Positions 4,898-61,771 of a stretch of DNA of 64,000 nt are shown here, one piece after another (the first letter of the stretch is position 1; every line of letters starts with the position of its first letter). The notes beneath the pieces are model-generated. The model saw only the letters and a list, made by a program, of their open reading frames with translations, did not search any database and was not told the origin of the DNA. The position numbers and the translations under genes were made by a program. Origin of the DNA: Amphiura filiformis (taxonomy: Eukaryota > Echinodermata > Ophiuroidea > Amphilepidida > Amphiuridae); assembly GCF_039555335.1 (NCBI RefSeq), contig NC_092637.1:496001-560000 (forward strand), written 5' to 3'.

Positions 4898-4973
4898 GCT
4901 AGTTTGGCGCGGATGGCCCCCAGCTATGGCCGACTTAATCCTGACCATCACTTGGCTCGTCGGATTCGTTTAT

Positions 4974-6655: not shown

Positions 6656-6698
<43 letters not shown>

Positions 6699-6859: not shown

Positions 6860-7103
6860 GTAAGATAAATAGATAAACAATTATGTGGGTTTTTTTATAT
6901 TTCAATTGCCCTTGAATGGTATATTCAATAGTAATTAGTATAATAATGAATAAGTGATGATCGTTTTAGGTATATGGACCTAATTATTATGAACTTTTGC
7001 CGCCACAAAATCAGTAGGGCTGATGATGCGTTCAGGATTGGACGTGAAAATTTCCCACTCAAAAATAGTAAGTCCAGTTGACTAGATTATAGTTTAATAT
7101 TAA

Positions 7104-7163
<60 letters not shown>

Positions 7164-7169
7164 ATGGCC

Positions 7170-7233
<64 letters not shown>

Positions 7234-8275: not shown

Positions 8276-8386
8276 GTCCATGTCCAAACGAAGGCTATTT
8301 CCGCTGTGATAACCTAAGGTGTATTGACCCTGACCTGGAATGCAATGGTGAAGACGACTGTCGTGACAATTCCGATGAGATCGATT
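8276..8386 (+). CDS. Gene A, LDLa exon 6
   Basis: This 111-nt phase 1-1 exon lies between TTATAG and GTAAGA. It encodes [37 protein letters not shown]. All six Cys and the calcium cage are intact. It is a near-duplicate of the exon at 6411, and its acceptor is intact where the other is damaged. The two probably arose by a recent local duplication of exon plus flanking intron. Confidence 0.9.
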
Positions 8387-10048
8387 GTAAGATAATTAGA
8401 ATTTTATAATAATATGCATACTAGAATAAACCCCTCACATCGAAACACGACAGTTGTTGGAAACCCACATTTAAAGATAATAAAGCCAATGTGCTCTGAA
8501 AAATAAAGAAAATAAAAAGAAATTTGAACTGTATTTGTCAATCGCCATTCTACATGCGATGTTAAAGAAAGAGGTGCCATTTTAAAGCTTAGAAACAGTC
8601 CTTTAGTTTGGTAACAAGTCCATTTTTGACGACAACTGCCGTGTTTCGATGTGATGGGTTACATTTGAGCTTAATTGTATACTAATATAAAAGAGAAAAG
8701 ACAATTTCAAATTTAGATGGAAAAAGCTCGGAAAACTACAGTAAGAGATATGTATTCCGTTAGCTTGGGGGGGGCGGACAAGAAAAACTACTTATTTAAC
8801 CAATGTCAACATGGGGTCACCGGGCAAAATGTTCTTCTAATACATTAACAAACTCCACAATATGGCAGCAATGGACATAAAAATGTTCCTCATTATTTGG
8901 CACTTTAAATTTGAACAAATTAACGCCTTCATACACAACACATATCCCACGCTTGATCGTTTCATTCATAATGATGATGATGATTGATCAACATCATCAT
9001 CATCAGAAAAAGTTAGAGGACATCTCCCATTCACCCGTGTGTGGTGAATTCTCGCTATTCGCAATAAGGGCGCCGCCAGCGGTTTGCGATGGGAAAATCG
9101 TGATGTATCATGGTAAAAGGTCGACATCCAAGTCCGCGCAATACGAATATTACCATGTTATATATGCTAATATTCGTATTGCGCGGACTTGGATGTCGAC
9201 CTTTTCCCATGATACATCACGATTACATCGCAAACCGCTGGCGGCGCCCTTATTGCGAATAGCGAGAATTGACTACGTAATCTTACTAAACAAAGGCATT
9301 TAGGCCAAAATATCACAATAATGATTTGAATATGTTATCTTCATATAATATGTCAAAAAAAAAAAAATTAAAAAACCGACACATGGTACCTGATGTAATT
9401 TCAACCAAGCATTTCACTGTTTCGTAGTGAATGTGGATGTAGATGACGGCGTACTGTCATTCTTATCACAGTTCATTCATAAAAAAAAAATATCACTCGA
9501 TAGTACCGACCATAAGGCATATACTAGCCAAATTAGAACACCATCCGGCTATTTTGCATTATTGCAATATTCATAAATATTGGTCATAATGCCCATATTT
9601 GGCATTTAGCAAATACACAAATATTATAAATATTATAAACAGAAAAATATACGCTAAAAATTACCACACACGGAAAACAACTAACTCCTCTTTTGATGTT
9701 TACTGGGGTATGGCGAGTGTGGCCTTCAGCAGGTAAAATTGTTACTATTTTAAAGCTATTGTAAGTTTGTCATTCGGTGTATTGCAACTTGTTATTTCTA
9801 CTCCATTTAGTTTTCAAGAAATAGCTATTTAAATGTGCCATTTTTAGGCAGAATATAATAAAAAATCATTATCATACTGAAGATGACGATAATGATCACG
9901 ATGACGAGGATGATAATGAATATTATGACAAAAATGATGACGATGATGGTGGTTTTAATGATAGACCTAATAATGATGATGATGATATAACCTAAAAACA
10001 ATTTTATTTTAACATATTAACGGTAGTATCTTTTCTGTTCTACTACAG
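8387..10048 (+). other. Last intron of gene A (tentative)
   Basis: It contains a long hairpin (9047-9270), short (ATG)n/(ATC)n runs near 8970-9005 and a GAT-rich low-complexity stretch (9880-9990). I saw no further LDLa exon. A T-rich tract leads to the CTACTACAG acceptor at 10048. Confidence 0.45.
9047..9270. repeat. Long near-perfect hairpin, about 105-bp arms
   Basis: GAATTCTCGCTATTCGCAAT at the left is mirrored by ATTGCGAATAGCGAGAATT at the right. The arms are almost perfectly complementary through the GGTCGACATCCAAGTCCGCG segment, with a short AT loop near 9155. The extreme stem identity suggests a young fold-back element or a source of hairpin RNA. Confidence 0.8.
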
Positions 10049-11070: not shown

Positions 11071-11199
11071 TCTAATACTCGGAGTCTGTGGAGCGCTTAA
11101 GTTATCATATTAAATGTCATGGTAAGTCAGTGATACATAATGATCAGATTATTGGCATTGTTTATAACATTATTATCCAGTTAAAATTCGACAAGTTTC

Positions 11200-11860
11200 C
11201 GCAAAATTCACAATATTTGCGCTATTTTTCACCGAGTTATAAAAAAAGGCTGTAAATAACGTGTTTATTATTGCCCAATGTATGTTTTACCAATTATTTC
11301 CCAAATTGTTTGTAACAGATATATATCATAATCATCAATTTCTTAAACGTCAGTATGAATTTGAGAAAATATCACAGCACATACGTGGGCGTGATCGATT
11401 TGAGTTTTTCCTGCAAAATTCACAATATTTGCGCTATTTTTCACCGAGTTATAAAAAAAAAAGGCTGTAAATAACGGGTTTATTATTGCCCAATGTATGT
11501 TTTACCAATTATTTCCCAAATTGTTTGTAACAGATATATATCATAATCATCAATTTCTTAAACGTCAGTATGAATTTGAGAAAAATATCACAGCACATAC
11601 GTGGGCGTGATCGATTTGAGTTTTTCCTGCAAAATTCACAATATTTGCGCTATTTTTCACCGAGTTATAAAAAAAAAGGCTGTAAATAACGAGTTTATTA
11701 TTGCCCAATGTATGTTTTACCAATTATTTCCCAAATTGTTTGTAACAGATATATATCATAATCATCAATTTCTTAAACGTCAGTATGAATTTGAGAAAAT
11801 ATCACAGCACATACGTGGGCGTGATCGATTTGAGTTTTTCCTGAACAAACTTATGGATGC
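11200..11860 (+). repeat. Tandem repeat, three copies of about 212-216 bp
   Basis: The landmark GCAAAATTCACAATATTTGC starts at 11201, 11413 and 11629. Units differ mainly in A-run length (AAAAAAA versus longer). The third copy diverges after TTTTTCCTGAAC near 11843. Each unit contains ATACGTGGGCGTGATCG. The short ORFs in it repeat with the unit and are not credible genes. It is possibly a nascent satellite. Confidence 0.85.
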
Positions 11861-20796: not shown

Positions 20797-20872
20797 ATGT
20801 GTGTGTTTTTGTCTTCTCTTCTGTTGGGATTTCTGATGACCAGTTCCTTATGCGGAGTTCAAGGACAAACAG
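20797..20872 (+). CDS. Gene B, first exon: signal peptide
   Basis: The ATG at 20797 opens a 25-codon exon encoding a classic secretory signal: a short MCVF start, a hydrophobic core (LSSLLLGFLM), a small-residue region (SSLCGVQG) and QT. It is followed by a GTATTT donor. The exon ends in phase 1, matching every later exon of the gene. An upstream in-frame ATG at 20725 would add 24 non-hydrophobic residues, so I prefer 20797, which puts the signal at the N-terminus. It predicts that the LDLa/mucin/FN3 product is secreted or displayed at the surface. A TATA-like CATAAAATAG lies near 20711. Confidence 0.75.
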
Positions 20873-22413: not shown

Positions 22414-22872
22414 TTGAATGTGGGGAACATCAGTTCAGATGTGATGATGGCCAAAAATGTATCGCAGAATATTACCAATGTGATCACATCCCTGACTGTG
22501 ATGATAACAGTGATGAAGATGGCTGTATATGTGATCCAAGCATTGAATTCACATGTACCACTGGCGGGTGCATTAATAATACCTGGGTTTGTGATGCCAG
22601 AGCTGATTGCTTCGATGGCAGTGATGAAGTCACCTGTACTGAGTGCGCTGAAGGATTGTATCTATGTACCAATCATAGCTTTTGCATTCCTGAAGATTGG
22701 ACATGCGATAATATTACAGACTGTCCCGATAACAGTGATGAAGTTGATGGTTGTCTATGTGATCCAAACACTGAATTTACTTGCACTGTAGGTGGATGTA
22801 TCGACGGTACTTTGGTTTGTAATGGTGAAGCCAATTGTGATGATGCTAGTGATGAAGCAGCAGATATATGTG
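22414..22872 (+). CDS. Gene B, exon with four LDLa modules
   Basis: This 459-nt phase 1-1 exon follows TTTTTGTAG and ends at GTAAGA. It encodes four consecutive LDLa modules with almost no linkers. They begin ECGEHQFRCDDG, ICDPSIEFTC, TECAEGLYLC and LCDPNTEFTC. Each has six Cys and a C-terminal DxSDE-type calcium motif (DNSDEDGC, DGSDEVTC, DNSDEVDGC, DASDEAADIC). Modules 1 and 3, and 2 and 4, resemble each other, so the exon looks like a duplicated pair. One-module-per-exon structure, as in gene A, has been lost here. Likely extracellular ligand-binding region; ligand unknown. Confidence 0.92.
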
Positions 22873-24278: not shown

Positions 24279-24545
24279 TTTTTTTCACCGTTGGAAATGT
24301 CACCTCTTCCACAATCCATGTGATTGTAACGGAGATTGTAGATGCTGAATTCTACCAACTTGTCTTAATTGACCCCAGTGGAATTGAAACAGTAATTAAT
24401 ATTGACTCAGATTATCTTATGGATGGATATTATAATTATGTTTTTGGCAATCTTAAACTTGGAACTGATTATGAAATAACCCTTAGCTATACAAAATTTG
24501 ATGGAGAAACTATCACCACAGGAAGATCGGTGGCAACGACTGCAG
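24279..24545 (+). CDS. Gene B, FN3-like domain exon 1
   Basis: This 267-nt phase 1-1 exon lies between TTATTTCAG and GTAATT. The 89-residue translation begins FFTVGNVTSSTIHVIVTE and ends SVATTA. The alternating hydrophobic pattern resembles a fibronectin type III fold: a conserved-Tyr-like F-Y-QLVLI strand, LKLGTDYEITLSY as strand E/F, and a terminal TTA linker. The LxxGTxYxIxLS motif is the best FN3 hallmark. The usual B-strand Trp is replaced by Val/Ile. FN3 modules act as extracellular adhesion or spacer units. The fold is inferred from the motif only. Confidence 0.75.
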
Positions 24546-26695: not shown

Positions 26696-27067
26696 ATACA
26701 TGTGCTGAAGATGAGTACGCCTGTGCTGATGGTCAGAGGTGTATTGCAGAACATAATCGCTGTGATTCCTACGATGACTGTACAGATGGTAGTGATGAAG
26801 TCGACTGCATTCAATGTGAAGAAGGATCGTATCAATGTTCTAGTGGTAAATGTATACCTGAAAGATGGAGATGTAATTACTTCAGTGACTGTGAAGACAA
26901 CGGTGATGAAATCGATGGTTGCGCATGCGATGATCCAATAAATGAGTTTAATTGTACCGCTGGTGGATGTATTAGTCGCATCTGGATTTGTGATGATTAT
27001 CCAGATTGCATCGATGGCAGTGATGAGGCAGTCGAATTATGTGATATGAGGTCTACCACCGAATTCA
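26696..27067 (+). CDS. Gene B, exon with three LDLa modules
   Basis: This 372-nt phase 1-1 exon lies between TTCTTAAAAG and GTATGT. The modules start TCAEDEYACADG, IQCEEGSYQC and ACDDPINEFNC; all have six Cys and DxSDE or DNGDE calcium motifs. The exon ends with DMRSTTEF. Modules 2 and 3 are nearly identical to the LDLa pairs in the four downstream cassette exons. This exon is therefore the likely progenitor or nearest relative of the cassettes; there the first half of module 1 is replaced by a Ser/Thr-rich segment. Confidence 0.9.
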
Positions 27068-27353: not shown

Positions 27354-27941
27354 GATCGACCAGAATTCCACCAGTGACTACAACAAACTATGCAAATACA
27401 GCCGAACCATCGGATATCACCGAATTATTAAGCACAACCGAACTCTTTGGTACCACACCCCAATTAAGTACAGATAATATATTGACTAGCACACTTAATA
27501 TGGATACAGATGAGGTAGTTGTTACCACGGACACAGATAATCCTAGTACAACATATTCATTGGGTAGCACAGACCCTTTAAGTACTGCCGAACTCTTGGG
27601 TATCACAGATCTGCCAAGTACAACAAAACAAACAAGTCCCACAGCTTGTACAGATGGTAGTGATGAATTAGGATGTATTCAATGTCAAGAAGGCTATTAT
27701 CAATGTTCTAGTGGTAAATGTATACCTGAAACATGGAGATGTAATTATTTCAGTGACTGTGAAGACAACGGTGATGAAATCGATGGCTGCGCATGCGATG
27801 ATCTAATGAATGAGTTTAATTGTACCGCTGGTGGATGTATTAGTCGCATCTGGATTTGTGATGATTATCCAGATTGCATCGATAGCAGTGATGAGGCATA
27901 CGAACTATGTGATATGAGGTCTACCACCGAATTCAGTATGA
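27354..27941 (+). CDS. Gene B, cassette exon 1: Ser/Thr-rich + LDLa
   Basis: The exon is 588 nt and phase 1-1, following AAATATTTAG. The donor is probably GTATGT at 27942; an alternative GTATGA at 27936 is 6 nt shorter in the same phase. The first ~100 residues are Ser/Thr-rich and acidic (start RIPPVTTTNYANTAEP), with TTELFGTTPQLST-type units like the giant exon. Next comes a truncated LDLa (only CTDGSDELGC), then two full LDLa modules starting IQCQEGYYQC and ACDDLMNEFNC. Likely an O-glycosylated stalk plus calcium-binding modules. It is one of four tandem copies about 0.87 kb apart. Confidence 0.88.
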
Positions 27942-28849: not shown

Positions 28850-29434
28850 GATCAACCAGAGTTCCACCAGTGACTACAACAAACTATGCAAATACAGCCG
28901 AACCATCGGATATCACCGAATTATTCAGCACACCCGAACTCTTTGGTACCACACCCCAATTAAGTACAGAACTATTGACTACCACACTTAATAAAGATAC
29001 AGATGAGGTAGTTATTACCACGGCCACAGAAAATCCTAGTACAACATATTCATTGGGTAGCACAGACCCTTTAAGTACTGCCGAACTCTTGGGTATCACA
29101 GATATGCCAAGTACAACAAAACAAACAAGTCCCACAGATTGTACAGATGGTAGTGATGGAATAGGTTGCCTTCAATGTGCAGAAGGCTATTATCAATGTT
29201 CTAGTGGTAAATGTATACCTAAAAGATGGAGATGTAATTATTTCAGTGACTGTGAAGACAACGGTGATGAAATCGATGGCTGCGCATGCGATGATCCAAT
29301 AAATGAGTTTAATTGTATCGCTGGTGGATGTATTAGTCGCATCTGGATTTGTGATGATTATCCAGATTGCATCGATAGCAGTGATGAGGCATACGAACTA
29401 TGTGATATGAGGTCTACCACCGAATTCAGTATGA
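28850..29434 (+). CDS. Gene B, cassette exon 2: Ser/Thr-rich + LDLa
   Basis: This 585-nt phase 1-1 exon follows TATAATTTAG; the donor is GTATGT at 29435 (or GTATGA at 29429). The layout matches cassette 1: RVPPVTTTNYANTAEP start, acidic Ser/Thr-rich region, truncated LDLa (CTDGSDGIGC), and LDLa modules starting LQCAEGYYQC and ACDDPINEFNC. The truncated module's DGSDE is altered to DGSDG. It differs from cassette 1 by scattered substitutions and one codon fewer in the Thr-rich part. It remains fully open and splice-competent. Confidence 0.88.
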
Positions 29435-29722: not shown

Positions 29723-30307
29723 GATCGACCAGAATTCCAGTGACTACAACAAACTATGCAAATACAGCCGAACCATCGGATATCACCGAATTATTAAGCA
29801 CAACCGAACTATTTGGTACCACACCCCAATTAAGTACATCAAATATATTGACTACCACACTTAATATGGATACAGATGAGGTAGTTGTTACCACGGACAC
29901 AGATAATCCTAGTACAACATATTCATTGGGTAGCACAGACCCATTAAGTACTGCCGAACTCTTGGGTATCACAGATCTGCCAAGTACAACAAAACAAACA
30001 AGTCCCACAGCTTGTACAGATGGTAGTGATGAATTAGGATGTATTCAATGTCAAGAAGGCTATTATCAATGTTCTAGTGGTAAATGTATACCTGAAACAT
30101 GGAGATGTAATTACTTCAGTGACTGTGAAGACAACGGTGATGAAATCGATGGTTGCGCATGCGATGATCCAATGAATGAGTTTAATTGTAGCGCCGGTGG
30201 ATGTATTAGTCGCATCTGGATTTGTGATGATTATCCAGATTGCATCGATGGCAGTGATGAGGCAGTCGAATTATGTGATATAAGGTTTACCACCGAATTC
30301 AGTATGA
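29723..30307 (+). CDS. Gene B, cassette exon 3: Ser/Thr-rich + LDLa
   Basis: This 585-nt phase 1-1 exon follows TATATATTTAG; the donor is GTATGT at 30308 (or GTATGA at 30302). Sequence starts RIPVTTTNYANTAEP, lacking one Pro codon relative to its sisters. It then has the Thr-rich stalk, a truncated LDLa (CTDGSDELGC) and two full LDLa modules. By eye this is the copy closest to cassette 1, so cassettes 1 and 3 may share a recent duplication or gene-conversion history. Confidence 0.88.
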
Positions 30308-30580: not shown

Positions 30581-31171
30581 GATCGACCAGAATTGCACCA
30601 GTGACTACAACAAATTATGCAGATACAGCCGAACCATCGGATATCACTGAATTATTAAGCACAGCCGAACTATTTGGTACCACATCCCAATTAAGTACAG
30701 CAAATCTATTGACTACCACACTTAATATGGATACAGATGAGGTAGTTATTACCACAGACACATATAATCCTAGTACAACATATTCATTGGGTAGCACAGA
30801 CCCATTAGGAACTGCCGAACTCTTGGGTATCACAGATCTGCCAAGTACAACAAAACAAACAAGTCCCACAGATTGTACAGATGGTAGTAATGAATTAGGA
30901 TGTATTCAATGTGAGGAAGGATTTTATCAATGTTCTAGTGGTAAATGTATACCTGAAAGATGGAGATGTAATTATTTCAGTGACTGTGAAGACAACGGTG
31001 ATGAAATCGATGGCTGCCCATGCGATGATCTAATGAATGAGTTTAATTGTACCGCTGGTGGATGTGTTAGTCGCATCTGGATTTGTGATGATTATCCAGA
31101 TTGCATCGATGGCAGTGATGAGGCAGATGAACTATGTGCTATGAGGTCGTCTACTACCAAAATCAGTATCA
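30581..31171 (+). CDS. Gene B, cassette exon 4: Ser/Thr-rich + LDLa
   Basis: This 591-nt phase 1-1 exon follows TTATATTTAG. The GTATGT donor at 31172 is the better choice, because the alternative site used as comparison in the sister exons reads GTATCA here; this supports the longer form in all cassettes. Sequence starts RIAPVTTTNYADTAEP, then the truncated LDLa (CTDGSNELGC, with the calcium-motif Asp changed to Asn) and modules starting IQCEEGFYQC and PCDDLMNEFNC. It is the most diverged cassette and the one nearest the giant repeat exon. Confidence 0.88.
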
Positions 31172-32161
31172 GTATGTATGATTTTGATTCCACTAACGCT
31201 AAATGTTAGAGTGTGTGCCTCTCTATAATTGTGTTGCTATAAACAAATGTCTCGCAAGAAGAAAAACAAGATGCAGGCGCAGTGGTACGAGCTACTGGTG
31301 GATGAGGTTCTGGTCTATGCTTGAGATATTAATTACCCTTAAACTTTATATCCGATGAGGGACATACAATCGGAAACGGGTATCTTCATTAGCTTCTTAT
31401 GTAGCCCTTCCTACCTAAGTCTCTATACCCAGAAGTATTAAAATTAAACACTAGTTGAGGTTTAAACAGCGATCAGATATCCGTTCATACGCCAATGACA
31501 AGAATCAATCATCATCATCATCATCATCAGTCGGCTGCGGAGCAGGCGACTACAAGCTTTCTCCAACTAATGCGATCTTGGGCAAGCGAAACAATTTTGT
31601 TTGGCTGCAGCATCCATTCAGTATCTCCCAGGAGGTGCTGGACATACTGTAAGTACAGTGTGAGTGGCCGTCCCGGTTTCCTCTTCCCATGTGGTGGAAT
31701 ATAAAGCGCATATTCTTTCACAGGCTCGCCACCTTCAAGACGCAGTATATGGCCGAGAAATTTGAGTTGATGAATCTTGACTCTGGCAACCAGTGCAGTG
31801 GTGTTGGTCAGGTTGTAGATGGTTTCCTTTGGAATCCGATCCACACGCTTGATGTTTAACATGACTCTGTAGCAAGATGTTGCAAATGCATTGATCTTTT
31901 TTTCCATGTCCTTGGTAATTACCCATGACTCGCACCCGTACAGAAAGACAGTAACACACGTTGTCTGAAACAGCTTGATTTTTGTTTCGATTAGCAGGGA
32001 CGGGCTTCTCCAAAGGCGTTCCAGTTTCCAAGAATCAATATGCTGTGAATATTTTTTTTTTTAAACGAGTTTGAAAGATAAACTAATTGCATTAATCAAT
32101 TATTTGTAGCTAATATAAAATGATCTATTTCAGAATTATTCGGCTTTTTATATATATTCAG
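31172..32161 (+). other. Gene B intron before the giant exon
   Basis: It contains a 5'-truncated LINE fragment (31510-32028) in opposite orientation to the gene. The rest shows partial similarity to the other cassette introns near its end. Polypyrimidine TTTTTATATATATTCAG precedes the giant exon. Confidence 0.6.
31510..32028 (-). mobile_element. 5'-truncated RTE-like LINE tail with 11-bp TSD
   Basis: The minus strand encodes the C-terminal part of a non-LTR reverse transcriptase. It reads TTCVTVFLYGCESWVITKDM, then KKINAFATSCYRVMLNIKR, HQLKFLGHILRL, KRKPGRP and a stop; the first part is in a different frame from the second. It ends in a (TGA)n-type tail, seen on the plus strand as CAATCATCATCATC. 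An exact 11-bp duplication CAAGAATCAAT flanks it (31499-31509 and 32029-32039). This is a textbook 5'-truncated, target-primed insertion. No active domain remains. Confidence 0.85.
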
Positions 32162-35100
32162 GATCGACCAGAATTACACCAGTGACTACAACAGACTCTA
32201 CAGATACAACCAAACCATCTGATATCACAGAAATATTAAGAACAACAACACTCTTTGATGCCACACCCCACTTACGTTCAGCAACCCTATTGGCTACCAC
32301 ACAGACTATGAATACAGAAGAAGTAGTTATTACCACGGACACATATAATCCAAGTACAATTTATTCATTGGGTAGCATAGAGCCATTAAGTACTGACGAC
32401 CTCATGGGCACCACGTATGATCTATCAGGTACAACAAAACAATCGCATCCAACAGAGACATTGAATAAAGTAGGTACCACTGACACATTAAGCACATCAG
32501 AACTATTAAATCCGGCAGGATCAGTCGATTATTTAGGAACCATAGAGACATCAACTATATCAGGTACAACGGATACAGCAAGTACCTCTGAACTAATGGA
32601 TGGCACAAAAATATCAAGTACACCTGAGTATGTAGGTACTACTGATATATTAATCACATCATATTTATTTGGCACTACCGAGCCATCAAGCACAGCCGAA
32701 CTACTTGGTACTACAGAGGTATCAAGTGCAGCTAAAGTATTGGGTAACACAGATATATCAAGCACAGCCGAATTATCTGGTACCACGGATATGTCAAGTA
32801 CAACAGATTTATTAGGTGCCACGGATACACCAAGTACAGTCGAACTGCTAGGTACAACAGAGAGAGCAAGTACATCTGAACTAATGGATAGCACAGAGGT
32901 ATCAAGTACACCCGAGTATGTAGGTACTACTGATATATCAAGTACAGCCGAATTATCTGGTACCACGGATATGTCAAGTACAACAGATTTATTAGGTGCC
33001 ACGGATACACCAAGTACAGTCGAACTGCTAGGTTCAACAGAGAGAGCAAGTACATCTGAACTAATGGATAGCACAGAGGTATCAAGTTCACCCGAGCATT
33101 TAGGTACTACGGATAACTCAATCACATTCGATTTATTTGGCACTACCGAGCCATCAAGCACAGCCGAATCACTTGGTTCCACAGAGGTATCAAGTACAGC
33201 TAAAGTATTGGGTAGCACAGATATATCAAGCACAGCCGAATTATCTGGTACAACGGATATATCAAGTACAATAGATTTATTAGGTACCACGGATACACCA
33301 AGTACAGTCGAACTGCTAGTTACAACAGAGACAGCGAGTACATCTGAACTAATGGCTAGCACTGAGGTATCGTCCGCACATGTAGGTACTACTGATATAT
33401 CAAGTACAGCCGGATTATCTGGTACCACGGATATATCAAGTACAATAGATTTATTAGGTGCCACGAATACACCAAGTACAGCCGCACTGCTAGGTACAAT
33501 AGAGACAGCAAGTACACCTGAACTAATGGATGGCACAGAGATATCAAGTACACCCGAGTATTTAGGTACTACTGATATATCAAGTACAGCCGAATTATCT
33601 GGTACCACGGATATATCAAGTACAATAGATTTATTAGGTGCCACGAATACACCAAGTACAGCCGCACTGCTAGGTACAATAGAGACAGCAAGTACATCTG
33701 AACTAATGGATGGCACAGAGATATCAAGTACACCCGAGTATTTAGGTACTACTGATATATCAAGTACAGCCGAATTATCTGGTACCACGGATATATCAAG
33801 TACAATAGATGTATTAGGTGCCACGAATACACCAAGTACAGCCGCACTGCTAGGTACAATAGAGACAGCAAGTACACCTGAACTAATGGATGGCACAGAG
33901 ATATCAAGTACACCCGAGTATGTAGGTACTACTGATATATCAAGTACAGCCGAATTATCTGGTACCACGGATATGTCAAGTACAATAGATTTATTAGGTA
34001 CCACGGATACACCAAGTACAGCCGAACTGCTAGTTACAACAGAGACAGCAAGTACATCTGAACTAATGGCTAGCACAGAGATATCAAGTTCACCTGAGCA
34101 TTTAGGTACTACGGATAACTCAATCACATTCGATTTATTTGGCACTACCGAGCCATCAAGCACAGCCGAATCACTTGGTTCCACAGAGGTATCAAGTACA
34201 GCTAAAGTATTGGGTAGCACAGATATATCAAGCACAGCCGAATTATCTGGTACAACGGATATATCAAGTACAATAGATTTATTAGGTACCACGGATACAC
34301 CAAGTACAGTCGAACTGCTAGTTACAACAGAGACAGCGAGTACATCTGAACTAATGGCTAGCACTGAGGTATCAAGTACACCTGAGTATGTAGGTACTAC
34401 TGATATATCAAGTACAGCCGGATTATCTGGTACCACGGATATATCAAGTACAATAGATTTATTAGGTGCCACGAATACACCAAGTACAGCCGCACTGCTA
34501 GGTACAATAGAGACAGCAAGTACACCTGAACTAATGGATGGCACAGAGATATCAAGTACACCCGAGTATTTAGGTACTACTGATATATCAAGTACAGCCG
34601 AATTATCTGGTACCGCGGATATATCAAGTACAATAGATTTATTAGGTGCCACGAATACACCAAGTACAGCCGCACTGCTAGGTACAATAGAGACAGCAAG
34701 TACATCTGAACTAATGGATGGCACAGAGATATCAAGTACACCCGAGTATTTAGGTACTACTGATATATCAAGTACAGCCAAATTATCTGGTACCACGGAT
34801 ATATCAAGTACAATAGATTTATTAGGTGCCACGAATACACCAAGTACAGCCGCACTGCTAGGTACAATAGAGACAGCAAGTACACCTGAACTAATGGATG
34901 GCACAGAGATATCAAGTACACCCGAGTATGTAGGTACTACTGATATATCAAGTACAGCCGAATTATCTGGTACCACGGATATGTCAAGTACAATAGATTT
35001 ATTAGGTACCACGGATACACCAAGTACAGCCGAACTGCTAGTTACAACAGAGACAGCAAGTACATCTGAACTAATGGCTAGCACAGAGATATCAAGTACA

Positions 35101-38100
35101 CCCGAGCATGTAGGTACTACTGATATATCAAGTACAGCCGAATTATCTGGTACCACGGATATATCAAATACAATAGATTTATTAGGTACCACGGATACTC
35201 CAAGTACAGTCGAACTGCTAGGTACAACAGAGACAGCAAGTACACCTGAACTAATGGCTAGCACTGAGGTATCAAGTACACCGAGTATGTAGGTACTACT
35301 GATATATCAAGTTCAGCCGAATTATCTGGTACCACTGATATATCAAGTACAAAAGCTTTATTAGGTACCACGGATACTCCAAGTACAGTCGAACTGCTAG
35401 GTACAACAGAGACAGCAAGTACACCTGAACTAATGGCTAGCACTGAGGTATCAAGTACACCCGAGTATGTAGGTACTACTGATATATCAAGTACAGCCGA
35501 ATTATCTGGTACCACGGATATATCAAGTACAATAGATTTATTAGGTGCCACGGATACACCAAGTACAGCCGAACTGCTAGGTACAATAGAGACAGCAAGT
35601 ACACCTGAACTAATGGTCGGCACAGAGATATCAAGTACAACCGAGTATGTAGGTACTACTGATATATCAAGTACAGCCGGATTATCTGGTACCACGGATA
35701 TATCAAATACAACAGATTTATTGGGTACCTCGGATACATCAAGTACAGCCAACATACTGGCTACTACAGAGGCCTCAAGTACAGCTGCATTATTGGCTAG
35801 CACAGATATATCAAGTACACCCGAGTATGTAGGTACTACTGATATATCAAGTACAGCCGAATTATCTGGTACCACGGATATATCAAGTACAATAGATTTA
35901 TTAGGTGCCACGGATACACCAAGTACAGCCGAACTGCTAGGTACAATAGAGACAGCAAGTACACCTGAACTAATGGTCGGCACAGAGATATCAAGTACAA
36001 CCGAGTATGTAGGTACTACTGATATATCAAGTACAGCCGGATTATCTGGTACCACGGATATATCAAATACAACAGATTTATTGGGTACCTCGGATACATC
36101 AAGTACAGCCAACATACTGGCTACTACAGAGGCCTCAAGTACAGCTGCATTATTGGCTAGCACAGATATATCAAGTACACCCGAGTATGTAGGTACTACT
36201 GATATACCAAGTACAGCCGAATTATCTGGTACCACGGATATATCAAGTACAACAGATTCATTGGATATCACGGATACATCAAATACAGAGGAACTATTAG
36301 GTACCACGGACACATCAAGTACAACCGACATACTGGGTACTACAGAGGCCTCAACTACAGCTGAATTATTGGCTAGCACAGATATATTAAGTACAGCCGA
36401 GCTTTTGGGTACTATGGGTGTATCAAAAAGTACAATAAATTTATTGGGTACTACAGATACATCAACTTCATTCGACCTATTAGGTACCACAGATATATCA
36501 AGTTCAGCCGAATTTTCTGGTTCCACGGATGTATTAAGTACAGTCGAACTACTTGGTTCCACAGAGGTATCAAGTACAGCTGAATTATTGGGTAGCACAG
36601 TTATATCAAGTACTTCCGAATTATCTGATACCACAGATATATCAAGTACAACAGATTTATTAGGATCCACAGATACACCAAGTACAGTCGAACTACTTGT
36701 TACAACAGAGACAGCAAGTACATCTGAACTAATGGATAGCACAGAGATATCAAGAACACCCGAGCATTTAGGTACTTCGGATAAATCAAGCACATTAGAT
36801 TTATTTGGTACTACCGCGCCATCAAACACAGCCAAACTACTCAGTACTACAGAGACGCTCCGTACATCTGACCTATTGAGTAGCACAGATATATCAAATA
36901 CACCCGAGTATGTAGGTACTACTGATATATCAAGTACAGCCGAAATATCTGGTACCACGGATATATCAAGTACAATAGATTTATTATTAGGTACCACGGA
37001 TAGACCAAGTACAGTCGAACTGCTAGTTACAACAGAGACAGCAAGTACATCTGAACTAATGGATGGCACAGAGATATTAAGTGCACCCGAGTATTTAGGT
37101 ACTACTGATATATCAAGTACAGCCGGATTATCTGGTACCACGGATATATCAAGTACAATAGATTTATTAGGTGCCACGGATACACCAAGTACAGCCGAAC
37201 TGCTACGTACAATAGAGACAGCAAGTACACCTGAACTAATGGATGGCACAGAGATATCAAGTACAACCGAGTATGTAGGTACTACTGATATATCAAGTAC
37301 AGCCGGATTATCTGGTACCACGGATATATCAAATACAACAGATTTATTGGGTACCTCGGATACATCAAGTACAGCCAACATACTGGCTACTACAGAGGCC
37401 TCAAGTACAGCTGCATTATTGGCTAGCACAGATATATCAAGTACACCCGAGTATGTAGGTACTACTGATATACCAAGTACAGCCGAATTATCTGGTACCA
37501 CGGATATATCAAGTACTACAGATTCATTGGGTACCACGGATACATCAAATACAGAGGAACTATTAGGTACCACGGACACATCAAGTACAACCGACATACT
37601 GGGTACTACAGAGGCCTCAACTACAGCTGAATTATTGGCTAGCACAGATATATTAAGTACAGCCGAGCTTTTGGGTACTATGGGTGTATCAAAAAGTACA
37701 ATAAATTTATTGGGTACTACAGATACATCAACTTCATTCGACCTATTAGGTACCACAGATATATCAAGTTCAGCCGAATTTTCTGGTTCCACGGATGTAT
37801 TAAGTACAGTCGAACTACTTGGTTCCACAGAGGTATCAAGTACAGCTGAATTATTGGGTAGCACAGTTATATCAAGTACTTCCGAATTATCTGATACCAC
37901 AGATATATCAAGTACAACAGATTTATTAGGATCCACAGATACACCAAGTACAGTCGAACTACTTGTTACAACAGAGACAGCAAGTACATCTGAACTAATG
38001 GATAGCACAGAGATATCAAGAACACCCGAGCATTTAGGTACTTCGGATAAATCAAGCACATTAGATTTATTTGGTACTACCGCGCCATCAAACACAGCCA

Positions 38101-39459
38101 AACTACTCAGTACTACAAAAACGCTCCGTACATCTGACCTATTGAGTAGCACAGATATATCAAATACACCCGAGTATGTAGGTACTACTGATATATCAAG
38201 TACAGCCGAAATATCTGGTACCACGGATATATCAAGTACAATAGATTTATTATTAGGTACCACGGATAGACCAAGTACAGTCGAACTGCTAGTTACAACA
38301 GAGACAGCAAGTACATCTGAACTAATGGATGGCACAGAGATATTAAGTACACCCGAGTATGTAGGTACTACTGATATATCAAGTACAGCCGGATTATCTG
38401 GTACCACGGATATATCAAGTACAATAGATTTATTAGGTGCCACGGATACACCAAGTACAGCCGAACTGCTACGTACAATAGAGACAGCAAGTACACCTGA
38501 ACTAATGGATGGCACAGAGATATCAAGTACAACCGAGTATGTAGGTACTACTGATATATCAAGTACAGCCGAATTATCTGGTACCACTGATATATCAAGT
38601 ACAAAAACTTTATTAGGTACCACGGATACACCAAGTACAGTCGAATTGCTAGGTACAACAGAGACAACAAGTACATCTCAGCTAATGGATAGCACAAAGA
38701 TATCAAGTACGCCCGAGTATGTAGATACTACTGATATAACAAGTACATCCGAATTATCTGGTACCACTGATATATCAAGTACAATAGATTTATTAGGTGC
38801 CACGGATACTCCAAGTACAGCCGAACTGCTGGGTACAACAGAGACAGCAAGTACACCTGAACTAATGGATAGCACAGAGATATCAAGTACACCCGAGTAT
38901 GTAGGTACTACTGATATATCAAGTACAGCTGGATTATTTGGTACCACGGATATATCAAATACAACAGATTTATTTGTTTCCACGAAAACACCAAGCACAG
39001 CCAAACTGCTAGGTACAACAGAGACAGCAAGTATACCTGAACTAATGGATAGCACAGAGATATCAAGTACACCCGAGTATGTAGGTGCTAGTGATATATC
39101 AAGTACAGTCGAATTATCTGGTACCACGGATATACCAAGTACAACAGAGACATCAAGTACGACCAAACTATTGGGTACCACACAGAAATCAAGTACAACT
39201 AAACTTTTGGGTTCCACGAACAAATCAAGTTCATTCGAACCTGCGGGTGGCACAGAAACATCTAGTAAAACACATTTATTCGGTACAACAGAGACATCGA
39301 GTACAGCCCAACTACTGGATACCACTGAGACACCACATACAACGGAAGCATCTGCTTCTACGAAGACACCAAATGCAACAGAACTACTGGATTCAAACAC
39401 AGATACGCACAGTGCAACTATATTTACCACAGAGGCGCCGAGTACAACAAATTCACAAG
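32162..39459 (+). CDS. Gene B, giant mucin-like repeat exon (one frameshift)
   Basis: A single exon of 7,298 nt runs from a TATATTCAG acceptor to a GTAAAT donor. It starts like the cassettes (RSTRITPVTTTDSTDTTKPS) and then encodes about 2,300 residues of a Ser/Thr/acidic repeat with almost no Lys, Arg or Cys. The basic unit is 12 residues (36 bp), e.g. GTTDISSTAELS. Five unit types form a 60-residue (180-bp) higher-order repeat. Likely a heavily O-glycosylated, negatively charged mucin-like stalk. The frame is broken once: near 35281 the CCC of ACACCCGAGTATG is CC, giving a TAG at 35290; the rest is open in the next frame to 39459. Length plus one base is divisible by 3, as expected for a phase 1-1 exon. 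Confidence 0.85.
33361..35280 (+). repeat. 180-bp higher-order tandem repeat (5 x 36 bp)
   Basis: Within the giant exon, lines of sequence repeat at exactly 180 bp, for example GATATATCAAGTACAGCCG every 180 bp. Each 180-bp unit has five distinct 36-bp subunits (types DISSTAEL, DISSTIDL, TPSTA-LL, TASTPELM, ISSTPEYV). A larger repeat of about 1,002 bp is also visible: the ACTACGGATAACTCAATCAC block occurs near 33106 and 34108. Recurrent unequal exchange would give this pattern. Confidence 0.9.
35460..38340 (+). repeat. 360-bp and about 1,266-bp tandem duplications in the giant exon
   Basis: The 360 bp from 35461 to 35820 are repeated almost exactly at 35821-36180. A larger block containing ATGGGTGTATCAAAAAGTAC recurs about 1,266 bp later (36414 and 37680), spanning roughly 35,800-37,070 and 37,070-38,340. 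Copies differ by a few substitutions, so the duplications look recent. Confidence 0.88.
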
Positions 39460-40966
39460 GTAAATAGCATGGATCATCCAGGGAGAATTCTGACTCATTT
39501 TCCCAATATGATGTGTGTGTGGGTCGTGAGGATTGGGGGATATGTGTGTGTTATAAACCATATAGGTATCATTACCGTTTGGTATCAGCCATTGTGTTAA
39601 ATACAATAAAGTCTCCTAAGATGGTATGTAACACATGTCCACAAGGCGATGTTATACGTCAAACACTTGGGATGCTACAATGCTCCATACGCCTTGCCAC
39701 TAACGCGTGATATGGGGCTGTACATCTAAATATAGTATGAAATTCCAATATCCCCGGGATATGCCTACTTAAATTCAACATGCTATTGATGCTAATCAGA
39801 ATAAATATGCAACTTAAAATCAATTGCATTTCAATGTTTCCCAAATATTTAAAAAAGAAAATAATAAAAATCGGTAAATTAAGGCCTGCTAGGTTCTAAT
39901 GTTATGACGTTGTCAAAATCATATTTTTAGGTTCGTTGCATCATACCGCGTGAGTCTTTATTATTATACGGAGAAATATCACATGCAAATCTATTGAACA
40001 ATCTGGGTGTATGTACTGCACATATCAATAAAGTCAAATGATCACACTTCACTGGAGCTTTATTATAATGATTTCTTGCAAACGATATGAATATATTTAT
40101 TCCTTGACATTTGATATTTAATTATATTTAATTATTATTTATATTATTGTCATTATGCATCCCAGTAAACACAAAAACGTTTTTAAAACGTTTTAAATAA
40201 GTTATATTTTAGCTTTTGGTTTAGGTAAAAACGTTTTAATAACATTAAAATGTCGGGTTATATAATGGTCATGATAACGTTTTAAAATGTTTTGTATGAA
40301 AAAACACTGTAACAATATTATAATATATATAATATGTTTTCACAAAATGTTATTGTAAACTATTTTTGCAAACATTTTTGCCAAATATTGTGTCAATACT
40401 TAAATAACATTATGTTAAAATATTTGAATCCAGCAAACACAGAAATGTTCTTAAAATGTTTTTTTCAAAACCTTTTAACAACATTTAAATGTCGGGTTAT
40501 ATAAAGGTCATGAAAACGTTTTTAAAACGTTATTGAAAATATTTTGGCCAAACATTATTCGCAAAATATTTCTTCAACCCCAAAATAACATTCTGTTTAG
40601 AATGTTTTGTGTCAAGTTTTCAAGAATGTTTTTGGAATGTTATTAAAACGTTTTTATACCCTTTATATAACCCCACATTTAAACGTTTTCTGCAAAACAT
40701 TTTTGTTTGCTGAGCAAAAGTTTTGATTATCAAAAAAATGTTATTTAATGTTATAAAAACGTTTTATACCATTAATGTATCCTTTATATAACCCGACATT
40801 TAAACGTTTTCTGACAACCTTTTATAACCTTTTGCGAATGATATTGAAAACGTTTTGTGTTTGCTGGGATACTATTTTGTATAATATTTTCTTCTAATCA
40901 AAGGTTAATAAGTTCAAAATATTATAACATACCTGCATATTGTTTGGTACCTTTTTCTAATTGAAG
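39460..40966 (+). other. Gene B intron after the giant exon
   Basis: 1.5 kb with an AACGTTTT-rich fold-back element (40159-40870). The interval 39480-40150 is AT-rich and carries no recognised exon. Confidence 0.55.
40159..40870. mobile_element. AACGTTTT-rich fold-back element
   Basis: It starts ATCCCAGTAAACACAAAAAC and ends GTTTTGTGTTTGCTGGGAT, near-perfect inverted ends. The interior is a mosaic of AAACGTTTT, AATGTCGGGTTATATAA and ATGTTATT motifs in both orientations, with an internal CCAGCAAACACAGAAATG start at about 40430, suggesting nested copies. A short relative is at 15538-15735. Confidence 0.8.
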
Positions 40967-41248
40967 GACCACATATCCTATATGAAGCGACTCTACAAAG
41001 TTACATGGACCCACTCGTGGTAAGATGGACATGGCCAGTCGGATCTCCAGTTGATGGTTTTAAGATTGAATTTAAGCCAACTATGACTGATGTGTGGAAT
41101 GTCGAGTATGCCACGGCAGATATGAGGATGTTTAACTTGCATGTGACAGGATTGGTTGATATACGGATTTCTACCATTCCGGTTATCACTTCTACCTTCC
41201 CAATAACAATTCCTACCACCACCGTTCCGATAACATCGCCGACACCAG
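40967..41248 (+). CDS. Gene B, FN3-like exon 2
   Basis: The exon is 282 nt and phase 1-1. I chose the acceptor TTCTAATTGAAG at 40966 because it has a pyrimidine tract and correct phase; the AG at 40987 is an alternative. The donor is GTATGG. The translation includes DPLVVRWTWPVGSPVDGFKI, EFKPTMTDVWNVEYATAD and VDIRISTIP, then a Thr/Pro-rich linker. The VxWxWP strand, GFxIEFK strand and IRIS strand resemble FN3. It is homologous to the exons at 42320 and 42964. Confidence 0.75.
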
Positions 41249-42319: not shown

Positions 42320-42604
42320 GTTTCATATATTACGGGTGGTTAGCGGCCTTTTCGGATTCTCTCGTGGTGAGGTGGACATGGTCTACTGAGTTTCCAGTAG
42401 CGGGCTTTATGATTGAATATAAATTAGATGATGCTGATGCGTGGAATATCGTGAATGCCACAAAGGATCAAAGAATGATAACGTTACAGGGGTTGACGAC
42501 AGGATTGTATGAGTTACGGATATCTATAATTCCACTTATCATCACATCTGCCACAACTACAATACCGATACCAACATCTGCCACAACAACAGTCCCGATA
42601 CCGG
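42320..42604 (+). CDS. Gene B, FN3-like exon 3
   Basis: This 285-nt phase 1-1 exon follows GGGCCAG, a weak acceptor context (an AG at 42343 is an in-phase alternative), and ends at GTATTT. The translation contains SDSLVVRWTWSTEFPVAGF, MIEYKLDDADAWNIVNATKD, QRMITLQGLTTGLYELRIS and a linker TSATTTIPIPTSATTTVPIP. This is the clearest FN3-like copy: LxGLTTGLYELRIS corresponds to the LxPxTxYxVxVxA region. It is likely part of the extracellular stalk after the mucin region. Confidence 0.78.
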
Positions 42605-42963: not shown

Positions 42964-43193
42964 ATCAAAATGTTTTATCCGAGGTATGGTTAATGGTTTT
43001 CGCGGATTCGCTCGTGGTGAGATGGGGCTGGCCAAAAGAGATTCCAGTAGCTGGCTTTTTGATTGAATATAAATTAGATGGTACTGATGCCTGGAATATG
43101 GAGCATGCCATGGTGGATCAAAGAATGATTACACTGCAAGGGTTGATAACAGGAAAATGTTATCATGTACGGATATCTAAAATTCCACTATAA
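42964..43193 (+). pseudogene. FN3-like exon 4, probably decayed
   Basis: After a TATCTTCGAAG acceptor the frame reads through FADSLVVRWGWPKEIPVAGF, LIEYKLDGTDAWNMEHA and QRMITLQGLITGKC to RISKIPL. It then hits TAA at 43191, where the sister exon continues into its Thr/Pro linker. Downstream sequence still resembles the linker (CACATCAGTCCC) and is followed by a GTAGGC donor-like site, in a shifted frame with another stop. Either this is a pseudoexon, or it provides an alternative C-terminus. Confidence 0.6.
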
Positions 43194-43439
43194 GCACATC
43201 AGTCCCAAAATGATCAGGTAGGCGACTTTGTTTTTAATTTACTCTTTTCACTTGCATTTCTGATAATTCCCTCCTGGTGAGATAGATATTCACTCGGTCG
43301 GACATCCGGGAGCATTGTCCCCTTCGCCCCCTTTGTACATGCTCGCGCATAGCAACCAGCTCGAGAAAGGGGAACTGCACATGCGCTGCACATGCGCACA
43401 CTGGTTTTACAAGGCTATTTCCCCTTTGTGACGTCAGCC

Positions 43440-43606
43440 CGACCAAGAGAATGGTCAAGTGGTTTTTCAGTAGCGGGCTTTATGATTGAATATAAAGTGG
43501 ATGGTACTGACGCGTGGAATATCGAGTATGCCCCCGGCCGGGAGTATGTCAAAGAATTGTACAGGGGTTGCTAAGAAGAATGTACAAGGTACGGGTGTAT
43601 AATTTT
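43440..43606 (+). pseudogene. FN3-like relic
   Basis: A fragment reads FSVAGFMIEYKVDGTDAWNI, then EYAPGREYVKELYRGC and a stop. It matches the middle of the FN3-like units at 42320 and 42964, but the N-terminal strand is replaced by unrelated sequence (with CATGCGCTGCACATGCGCA). The C-terminal LQGLTTG segment survives only as scrambled nucleotides (ACAGGGGTTGCTAAGAAG). It is a decayed fourth tandem copy. Confidence 0.7.
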
Positions 43607-48073: not shown

Positions 48074-48385
48074 GATACCCATACCCATAATGGGACCCAG
48101 TATTTGAGTCCCAATTCTCGTACCCGTTACCCATGGCCCGTACCGGGCCCGTACCAATACTGGGACCCGTACCGGTACTCGAGTCCCAATTTCCATACCC
48201 ATACTCATACCGTACATATGGCTCCGGACCCGGACCCGTACTCATGGCTAGGGACCCATACCCATACCCGTATCCATGGCCTGGGACCCGGACCCGTACC
48301 CGTACCTATGGTCTGAGACCCATACCCTTACTCAAGACATGGCTTGGGACCAGTACCCGTAGGCCCTACTCATGACTGGTCCCAA
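48074..48385 (+). repeat. GTACCC-type degenerate minisatellite, array 2
   Basis: ATACCCATACCCATAATGGG, GGGACCCGTACCGGTACTCG and similar blocks repeat with spacing of 6 or multiples of 6. TTTGAGTCCCAATTCTCGTA and GAGTCCCAATTTCC are shared with array 1. Confidence 0.8.
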
Positions 48386-52262: not shown

Positions 52263-54240
52263 CTCTCTCTAGGTGCCATATCCTAAGACGTTGGCGATCA
52301 TGTCATGCCACAATTCTCTGTTATAAGCCATCTCCACAAGCTCTGTCGCTTTATGTTCAGCTCCCCTTTCTTTTAGCCAGTCTTTCAGATTTGATAACCA
52401 CATCACTCTCTTCCTGCCTCTGCTCCTTGTTCCTTCTATTCTTCCTGTCAATACTAGGTTCTCGAAACCATCCTTTCTGAGGATATGACCAAGGAATTTG
52501 AGCTGCTTAACTCTGATTTCACGTAACAGCTTCCTGTTCACATTTGCTCTACTTAGGACATCGTCATTAGACACTTTATCAGTCCACGGGATCTTCATCA
52601 TTCTTCTAAGGAACCACATCTCGCAGCTCTCCAATCTTCTTTCAATGTCTGTTGTTATTGACCATGCTTCACTTCCATACATTAATACAGGGATGACATA
52701 GCAGTTGAGTACCCGAATTCTGGTCTCTATACTGAGGGCACTGTTTTTTTCTTGTCTAATTTTGAGAACGCAGACTTAGCCAGTGCAATCCTTCTCTTAA
52801 CCTCCTTAATACATCTGGCATCTTCTGTGATTAGACTGCCAAGGTAGTTGAAGGAGGAAACTTGCTTAATTCTTTGATCTTTCACCTTCAATATGCATGT
52901 TGGGCTTTCAGTCTTTGATACCACCATACATTCTGTCTTCTTGCAATTTAACGATAAACCTTTCCTCTCACTTTCCTGAACCACCACATCAAGAAGCCTT
53001 TGCGGATCCTCCTCAGACTCAGCTAATAGGACAGTGTCATCTGCATATCTTATGTTCGTGATGTTATGTCCACCTATACCGAGACCATTTTCCTTTTCTA
53101 GCTCCCTTAGGATCAGCTCACTGTAATAATTAAAGAGATCTGGTGACATCACACATCCCTGTCTGACTCCTCTCTTAATGCTTGTATATTCACTACAATC
53201 TCCATCCACCCTTATGCACGCTGTTTGGTTCCAATAAAGGTTCTGCAACAGTCGTAGATCCTTTCCATGCAGGTCTAGCTTACCAAGATCTTCAAAAAGC
53301 TGATCATGTCTCACCTTGTCAAAGGCTTTTGAGTAGTCAATGAAACACATGAAAACATCCTTCTGCATCTCTACCGCTCTCTCTGTTATCATTCTCAAGA
53401 CATAAATCGCATTCCTGGTACCAGCATCTTCTAAAAAGCCGAACTGCTCTTTACCAATCTCAGGTTTTATTCTACTTCTTGCACGGAGAAACAGGATTCT
53501 TAGAATTATCTTTGTAACATGGCTCATAAGGCTAATTGTACGGTGTTGTTCACAATCCACAGCGCCAGGTTTCTTGGGAAGAGCAATAAAGATTGATTTG
53601 CTCAGGTCTTCCGGAAATATCCCATCATCATACATTCTGTTGATGACTCCTGCAAGTTTCTCAATTCCATAATCCTCTAATGCTTCAATCATTTCAACAA
53701 CAATTCCATCTGGCCCAGCAGCCTTATTTCTGCTCATCATTTTTATAGCTGATCGAACCTCTGACTGCAATATCTTCGGACCCTCAATAGAATCTGGAAA
53801 GCTTGGCAAACCGTCCCTTACATCGTGAAATAACTCCCCAACATATTCCATCCACCTTTTCATTACATCATCTTTCCCTACCAGCATATTACCATTCTTT
53901 GCCTTGATGCACCCAGAGCTTGAAGACCCTGATTTCCTGCCTGAGATCTCATTTATCCTCTGGTACACATTCCGATTCTCTCCAAATTGACTCTCAATTT
54001 TGGCACATTCACTATTCAGCCAGGTCTCTTTGGCCTCCTTGCAACGTTTCTTTATTTGCCTGTCCAACTCTCTATATTCTTTTGAATCCCTGTCCATGAT
54101 CTTTTGCCTGTCTCTCATCATTGATAGAATTTCTTCTGTCATCCACTTGCTTTTACTTTCTCTCTTCTTCTTTGGCAGGCATTCCTCTGCTGTTTCAACC
54201 AAAATATCCCTCATGGGCTTGTTACTCCGTCTTGGGCTAT
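52263..54240 (-). pseudogene. RTE-like LINE reverse transcriptase, 5'-truncated, frameshifted
   Basis: The minus strand encodes linker, reverse transcriptase and C-terminal region. A 495-codon segment (54214-52727) has RT motifs SRNKAAGPDGI, CFIDYSKAFDKV, GVRQGCVMSPDLF and the catalytic RYADDTVLL, then NYLGSLI. It is interrupted at a T7 homopolymer (plus 52744-52750). The C-terminal segment follows in another frame (52682-52269; YGSEAW, WFLRRMMKIPWTDKVSNDD, KFLGHILRKDG) and ends in a (GA)n tail. The endonuclease is missing, so the copy is 5'-truncated. The catalytic Asp pair is intact, but the element is dead in cis. Similar tails occur in RTE-clade elements. Confidence 0.9.
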
Positions 54241-54620
54241 GACCAAGAATGATAAGAAGAGAGTAGATGCTTTTGAGATGTGGTGTTACAGGAGGCTTCT
54301 ACGAGTGACATGGAAAGACAGGAGAAAAAATTTTGGATCCTCGACAAGATTGGTATAAGTCTAACCATCAGAAGCGGCATAATGGAGAGAAAGCTGATGT
54401 ACTTTGGCCATATTGTCAGGAAACATGGAGGTGTAGAAAAACAGATTTTGCAAGGGGCTATGGAGGGCAAACGAGGAAGAGGACGTCCACCAACATCTTG
54501 GACTAATGACGTGAAGCTGGTTTCTAACCAAGGAATGCAAGGTGCAACGCACTTGGCACCAGATCGAGTGAGATGGCGTACTCTTGTGAAGACCACAGCA
54601 GCGCTATACAGCGCCACCTG

Positions 54621-61465: not shown

Positions 61466-61466
<1 letters not shown>

Positions 61467-61519
<53 letters not shown>

Positions 61520-61712
61520 CAGTAGTAGTAGTGGTAGTAGTAGTGGTAGTGGTAGTGGTAGTGGTAGTGGTAGTGGTAGTGGTAGTAGTAGTAGTAGTAG
61601 TAGTGTAGTAGTGGTAGTAGTAGTAGTAGTGGTAGTAGTAGTAGGTAGTAGTGGTGGTAGTGGTGGTAGTGGTGGTGGTGGTTGTGGTAGTGCATGAGTA
61701 TATTATTATTAT

Positions 61713-61770
<58 letters not shown>
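61467..61770 (+). repeat. (TAG)n / (GTA)n microsatellite
   Basis: About 300 bp of AGT trinucleotide repeats with GGT variants, interrupted by TGCATGAGTATATTATT near 61690. The poly-Ser, poly-Val and poly-Thr reading frames are artefacts. Confidence 0.95.

Positions 61771-61771
<1 letters not shown>

Follow-up and report, generated by a model that had tools for sequence, protein, structure and literature searches.

What kind of protein would be encoded by a single 7.3-kb exon that consists almost entirely of a 12-residue repeat, and where would such a repeat have come from? This question is raised by a locus of the ophiuroid Amphiura filiformis, in a window of 64,000 nucleotides (the whole stretch of DNA that was analysed; NCBI RefSeq assembly GCF_039555335.1, contig NC_092637.1, positions 496,001 to 560,000), where a giant exon, termed E9, follows a series of exons with LDLa modules. 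Coordinates are positions in the window, and all modelled features are located on the plus strand. With moderate confidence, the sequence points to a mucin-like domain, O-glycosylated and polyanionic, of a secreted animal protein with LDLa heads. The exon and the largest duplication within its array are as follows.

32162..39459, plus strand: giant exon E9, a spacer of the E5 type followed by approximately 190 units of 12 residues, without LDLa
35818..38598, plus strand: largest recent duplication, offset 1,266 bp, copies overlapping, 1,515 bp at 99.1% identity

E9 is bordered by an acceptor (TTCAG before GATCGA at 32162) and a donor (CACAAG before GTAAAT, after 39459). Tandem Repeats Finder identified a 36-bp tandem array of 179 copies at about 32.68-39.14 kb, together with overlapping entries for periods of 180 bp (27.5 copies) and 360 bp (15.6 copies). 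The original prediction of about 190 units in one exon was confirmed, with segmentation of the array in two in-frame pieces giving 79 + 112 = 191 units of 12 residues (187 scoring above 4 bits) and a stricter unit rule giving 184. On average, a unit reads approximately LGTTDISSTAEL. The five types of unit that were proposed to form a superunit were likewise recovered: 150 of the 184 units were at least 80% identical to one of five consensus units. After assignment of each unit to its best-matching type, the order ABCDE held in 144 of the 167 pairs of immediate neighbours, whereas 1,000 permutations averaged 36 of 183 (maximum, 52). The predicted higher-order blocks were also present, at 95-99.8% identity. 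Apart from the pair listed above, these included duplications at offsets of 1,008 bp (710 bp, 99.6% identity), 1,002 bp (620 bp, 96.6%), 360 bp (444 bp, 99.8%), and 180 bp (863 bp, 95.3%).

The composition of E9 (2,431 residues) also agreed with the claim that it is rich in Thr, Ser, Asp, and Glu and nearly free of Lys, Arg, and Cys. Thr and Ser contributed 24.9 and 17.3% (together 42.1%), and Glu and Asp contributed 7.8 and 7.3% (together 15%), whereas there were only 26 Lys (1.07%) and 13 Arg (0.53%; together 1.6%), and no Cys. The computed isoelectric point (pI) was 4.05 for each of the two pieces. In the accessible part of one source, a proline-threonine-serine (PTS) mucin sequence is defined by Thr+Ser above 40% and proline of about 5% (PMC9080433). 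The Thr+Ser content of E9 exceeds this mark, and 1,813 of 2,233 windows of 100 residues contain at least 40%. Another mark of mucins is that tandem repeats make up at least a third of the protein. E9 accounts for 7,298 of the 11,364 nt of modelled coding exons, although with a frame that is broken as assembled; in the as-assembled product, 1,167 of 2,209 residues precede E9, which thus forms nearly half.

The exons around the array were modelled with splice sites that were chosen by eye, with regard to phase and without a gene finder.

20797..20872, plus strand: E1, signal-peptide-type coding start (MCVFLSSLLLGFLMTSSLCGVQGQT), phase-1 end (hydrophobic stretch judged by eye)
22414..22872, plus strand: E2, four LDLa modules, phase 1-1 (Pfam PF00057, E 3.6e-38, 4 stretches; splice sites and phase)
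24279..24545, plus strand: E3, phase 1-1, no family match (splice sites and phase)
26696..27067, plus strand: E4, three LDLa modules, phase 1-1 (Pfam PF00057, E 6.9e-29; PDB matches)
27354..27935, plus strand: E5, Thr/Ser-rich spacer, LDLa remnant, and two LDLa modules (local LDLa profile)
28850..29428, plus strand: E6, module like E5 (local LDLa profile)
29723..30301, plus strand: E7, module like E5 (local LDLa profile)
30581..31165, plus strand: E8, module like E5 (local profile; Pfam PF00057, E 5.7e-19)
40967..41248, plus strand: E10, FN3-like with a Thr/Pro tail, phase 1-1 (splice sites; Pfam; three-copy profile)
42320..42604, plus strand: E11, FN3-like with a Thr/Pro tail, phase 1-1 (splice sites; Pfam; three-copy profile)
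42984..43190, plus strand: further FN3-like copy with a stop at its end and without a matching phase-1 acceptor by eye; last exon or decayed
43353..43568, plus strand: fourth FN3-like copy, a fragment, probably decayed (local profile, E 1.3e-09; no Pfam match)

The complete modelled exons are in phase 1 at both ends and E1 ends in phase 1, while the end of E9 is in phase 1 only in the frame of its second piece. Phase-1 symmetry is the rule for shuffled extracellular modules. Translation from the ATG runs through E1-E8 into the first part of E9 without a stop, for 2,209 residues. The model contained 15 complete LDLa modules, identified by Pfam in E2, E4, and E8 (the exons of the gene that were scanned as LDLa candidates) and by the local profile in E5-E7. 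All 15 complete six-cysteine modules carried the acidic motif, which in LDLa is responsible for calcium binding; the spliced product had 18 matches to this motif, including three in LDLa remnants. The best PDB sequence match of E4 was LRP2, in addition to VLDLR and LDLR, and the LDLa parts of E4-E8 showed lower nonsynonymous (dN) than synonymous (dS) divergence in 9 of 10 pairs. To judge from the signal-type exon, the LDLa-bearing protein is probably secreted. Upstream of E1, six more LDLa modules were found in five plus-strand open reading frames (ORFs) at 282-8403, with Pfam matches at 282 (below the cut-off), 1308, 5184, 6334 (two), and 8197; these ORFs probably belong to another LDLa gene.

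The downstream exons are weakly FN3-like. Single exons scored 18.6, 19.6, and 23.0 bits with Pfam fn3, under the cut-off of 25. A profile of the three FN3-like copies matched a titin chain (E 4.7e-07, without any single stretch passing alone) and a second titin chain (E 2.5e-06, in one stretch at profile positions 10-68), and reached other FN3 proteins at E 0.1-0.4 only. An FN3 assignment was not supported for the upstream exon E3, which had neither a Pfam match nor an hhalign match to the downstream FN3-like exons. The predicted position of E9 between LDLa and FN3-like modules in a signal-peptide gene is retained in part: the phase-1 joins agree with it and the LDLa modules are firm, whereas FN3 is weakly indicated downstream and lacks support in the upstream exon.

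The start of E9 bears on the origin of the array.

32162..32454, plus strand: 5' part of E9, homologous to the spacer of E5-E8 (dS 0.22-0.26, dN 0.20-0.24)

The dN/dS of the E5-E8 spacers relative to the E9 copy was 0.77-1.10; among the E5-E8 spacers themselves it scattered around 1 and was below 1 in 4 of 6 pairs. About 85 bp of the upstream intron is also common to E9 and E5-E8 (mean column identity of 79% over the five sequences). The E5-E8 spacers contained 12-mers of the array type, with scores of 41.9-49.7 against shuffle means of 0.4-0.5 and maxima of 8.8-15.8; each spacer held four or five such 12-mers above 3 bits, in degenerate form. The spacer copy of E9 itself scored 24.3, with a shuffle maximum of 10.6. 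Since degenerate 12-mers are found in the E5-E8 spacers, and E9 opens with this spacer behind a matching intron flank, a Thr/Ser spacer of the E5-E8 type is the most likely source of the array. In E5-E8, the spacer stands in place of the initial portion that an LDLa module has in E4, and just the end of that module remains (CTDGSDELGC in E5). The proposed order would be an LDLa exon, gain of the spacer, tandem exon duplication to form E5-E8, and expansion of the 12-mer in a copy without the LDLa pair, which the ancestor of E9 would have lost or never had. Unequal exchange would have multiplied the spacer 12-mer into units of 36, 180, 360, and more than 1,000 bp. More tentatively, the sequence may record a spacer between LDLa modules giving birth to a mucin domain, with four unexpanded sister exons (E5-E8) beside one of about 190 units, and its product may be a polyanionic polymer with a calcium-binding head that is covered by no described mucin family.

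Conservation of the reading frame was assessed on a tree of 97 distinct 36-bp sequences by Fitch parsimony. No stop arose among the 264 inferred substitutions, compared with 6.4-10.6 expected (P 2e-05 to 2e-03). In-frame stops were also absent from the 184 units, compared with 12.9 +/- 2.5 in 500 column shuffles, a procedure that breaks linkage within unit types and hence overstates the expected number. Nine of 10 distinct indels, which were counted by eye and exclude two strongly diverged in-frame stretches of 22 and 18 residues, were multiples of three, and the remaining one was the frame break. Gains of Lys, Arg, or Cys on the tree numbered 16, compared with 26-37 expected before scaling and approximately 22-32 once scaled to the 229 single-base changes (about 26 at a transition bias of 2, with the same scaling). 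On the opposite strand, ORFs extended over the array at 32529-35306 (925 residues) and 35258-38677 (1,139 residues); the antisense frame had one stop in the 184 units, compared with 6.6 expected in shuffles, and this scarcity is probably a side effect of the repeat.

The exon had been described as uninterrupted, which was not the case in this assembly.

35268..35292, plus strand: region in which the frame slips by a single base, with the TAG behind the slip (35290-35292), located by ORFs, comparison of repeat copies, and spliced translation

The first frame of the array is open from 32119 and closed by this TAG, and the array continues in a different frame that is open at 35268-39467, which places the one-base slip near 35,280. 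The length of E9 (7,298 nt) leaves a remainder of 2 on division by three, whereas those of the nine other complete modelled coding exons (E2-E8, E10, and E11) are multiples of three. Among 17 copies of a motif beginning ATCAAGTACACC, 16 are equal in length and one, located at the break, is one base shorter. The exons as assembled splice into a product of 2,209 residues that ends inside the array.

Several observations weigh against a mucin-like domain in an intact secreted protein. E9 is broken as assembled. Its proline content is 3.3%, which is not typical of mucin and misses the mark of about 5%, and the two thresholds, 40% for S+T and 5% for P, are attained together in only 161 of the 2,233 windows. 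With the more lenient values of Lang et al. (20% ST and 5% P, as quoted in the accessible part of PMC2515642) the outcome does not change, with ST reached and proline missed. Furthermore, 23% of the residues are hydrophobic and regularly spaced, which is also atypical of mucins. Synonymous changes made up 76 of 229 single-base codon changes (0.33, compared with 0.27-0.31 under neutrality), which reveals no visible constraint; dN exceeded dS in 13 of 16 duplicate pairs, although these overlap; and among recent nonsynonymous changes no depletion of Lys, Arg, or Cys gains was detected (8 of 50, compared with 13-20% expected). The donors of E5-E8 are poor, with 4, 4, 4, and 3 of 9 consensus positions, and no 3' end of the gene was located. 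On these sequence data, the array would work like a mucin domain, while strict PTS membership fails on proline. The frame and the overall composition appear to be kept and the folded modules constrained, whereas the residues of the repeat appear to drift near-neutrally, a pattern to be expected where a domain functions through its gross composition.

It is hardly credible that the array is a non-coding satellite with an open frame that is a by-product of the 36-bp period. A period divisible by three does allow an open frame to spread by itself, residue change is near-neutral, and the antisense frame is largely open as well, but such a satellite is at odds with the splice sites and their phase, the absence of stops in 264 substitution events, the in-frame length of 9 of 10 indels (by eye), and the in-frame homology to spacers of exons whose LDLa parts have dN < dS in 9 of 10 pairs. 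Alternatively, the frame break may be real and mark a truncated or dying allele or gene. In that case, either a product of 2,209 residues would stop short within the array or the mRNA would undergo decay, and neither the remainder of the array nor the FN3-like exons would be translated any longer from this allele or gene. This explanation is unlikely, although the break is present in the sequence, the two additional downstream FN3-like copies look decayed, and the residue changes of the array look neutral. Only a single base in 7.3 kb is uncompensated, the 1,392 codons after the break are free of stops in the new frame and reach a good phase-1 donor, and the missing base sits in a short one-letter run within a near-perfect repeat, which is a common place for assembly error. 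At this point, one sequence would read the same with an error of sequencing or assembly as with a frameshift allele that is real.

The acidic superunit with its Ser-Gly pairs may alternatively represent a proteoglycan-type or calcium-binding acidic matrix domain instead of an O-N-acetylgalactosamine mucin domain. The Asp+Glu content of 15%, the pI of 4.05 in both pieces, the low proline, and the regular Leu/Ile residues would fit such a domain, and so would the type-B units, which open with Ser-Gly preceded by an acidic residue (ELSGTTD in exact form, 17 times). However, SG dipeptides numbered 32 compared with 28.3 expected from composition, by which an enrichment of glycosaminoglycan Ser-Gly sites was rejected, and no SGxG was present, so that this assignment is rather improbable. 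There is also a small chance that two genes are involved, with the signal/LDLa exons and the array in different transcripts or with neighbours fused by the model. The model is known from DNA alone with splice sites chosen by eye, the donor of E8 is poor, matching the consensus at 3 of 9 positions, and a retrotransposon-like fragment lies at 31527-32060 in the intron before E9. Nevertheless, E9 is paralogous to the spacer part of E5-E8, with which it shares intron flank, phase, and strand, and it needs an upstream exon because it begins in phase 1. The preferred reading remains the mucin-like domain with LDLa heads. The gene would then be transcribed as one mRNA and the Thr/Ser of the array would be O-glycosylated, forming a stretched, negatively charged, hydrated rod, and the calcium-binding LDLa head would bind ligands or other matrix components and anchor the rod to a surface or within a gel.

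Other matches of the array were rejected. Drf_FH1 (formin FH1) scored 127-153 bits in Pfam against a cut-off of 40 in both array pieces; the FH1 segment is proline-rich, but the array has no PP dipeptide, and the match was taken to be false and repeat-driven. Gln-synt_C-ter, above the cut-off on the first piece, and other Pfam matches were also considered to be driven by repeat and composition. Searches of phages, viral contigs, and prokaryote genomes with E8, and of viral contigs with the array, gave no confirmed match; these are non-animal collections that are silent on animal homologues.

The LDLa runs with the acidic motif resemble the arrays of LDLR, LRP, and VLDLR, with LRP2 as the best PDB match. 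They differ from these by the Thr/Ser spacers between LDLa pairs and by the absence of YWTD and EGF among the Pfam matches of the scanned exons. SORL1 has an LDLa cluster followed by an FN3 cluster, and the order from LDLa to FN3 is similar here, but no VPS10 or YWTD was among the Pfam matches of the scanned exons, and a mucin-like array lies in between. Regarding mucins, the array resembles PTS or exonic variable number tandem repeat (VNTR) domains, for example those of MUC1 and MUC7, in its large size within an exon, repeat lengths divisible by three, more than 40% Thr+Ser, and drifting and duplicating units, as far as these domains are described in the accessible parts of the sources (PMC9080433, PMC2515642, PMC12776774). 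In contrast to mucins of this type, it has 3.3% Pro, is strongly acidic, and contains regular hydrophobic residues. LDLa modules stand in front, where the mucins in the accessible part of PMC9080433 have VWD or SEA. Of the domains that mark gel-forming or transmembrane mucins, no VWD, cystine knot, SEA, NIDO, or AMOP was among the Pfam matches of the scanned exons and ORFs, a set that does not reach the 3' end of the gene. Thr/Ser-rich repeats without proline have been termed "mucin-related" in Drosophila (PMC2515642, in part), and the array, also Thr/Ser-rich and with little proline, can be set beside these proteins by repeat description, with no kinship demonstrated.

Genes may become mucins by repeat gain, a process named "mucinization" (Pajic et al., 2022, as described in an excerpt of PMC12776774). 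The gain of an expanded Thr/Ser repeat exon by an existing gene is similar to that process, whereas in A. filiformis a Thr/Ser spacer between LDLa modules, instead of a proline-rich protein, would have been the seed, and four sister exons remain unexpanded beside it. According to the same excerpt, most mucins arose independently ("orphans"), and repeat-driven birth of mucins has been described (PMC12776774). A limited literature search on mucins, LDLa, echinoderm and hemichordate mucus, and repeat-driven mucin evolution did not reveal such a mucin-LDLa architecture. The novelty suggested in the original prediction rests on this absence, and the mucin-like kind itself has precedents. The secreted mucin-LDLa-FN3 protein that it proposed would be consistent with the signal-type exon, the LDLa modules, the mucin-like array, and the FN3-like exons behind it, though less so with the broken exon and the low proline. 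As a mucin-like protein it is unusual but not unprecedented, and the distinctive part is the preserved precursor exons.

The window contained several repetitive elements. A dispersed palindromic element resembling a miniature inverted-repeat transposable element (MITE) had ends at 4285, 4818, 14189, 20594, 22270, 28209, 28694, 59211, and 59740, as detected with one 32-base probe at no more than 5 mismatches. Opposite-facing ends were paired approximately 0.5 kb apart in three places, and some copies lay within introns of the LDLa-array gene. The minus-strand ORF at 31527-32060, in the intron before E9, presumably resembles the end of a non-long-terminal-repeat retrotransposon polyprotein; its only Pfam match was DUF6451 at 18.8 bits, below the cut-off. 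On the minus strand, an ORF for a reverse transcriptase was located at 52269-54298 (Pfam RVT_1 at 52727-54295, E 2.7e-34), and a second ORF that overlaps it follows in a different frame. Tandem repeats occurred at 11196-11843 (215 bp, 3 copies) and 48224-48361 (64 bp, 2.2 copies), and at 61466-61771 the triplet TAG was repeated about 100 times.

Formal tests of whether the absence of frameshifts in exonic repeat expansion departs from neutrality are described as lacking in the accessible part of PMC12776774. Such a test could draw on the A. filiformis locus, where the initial counts (0 stops in 264 inferred substitutions and, by eye, 9 of 10 indels in frame) point to a departure, with the exception of one break. 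If intact and expressed, the gene would encode a large secreted mucin-like protein and would allow a direct comparison of the repeat exon with the sister exons that it retains in unexpanded form.

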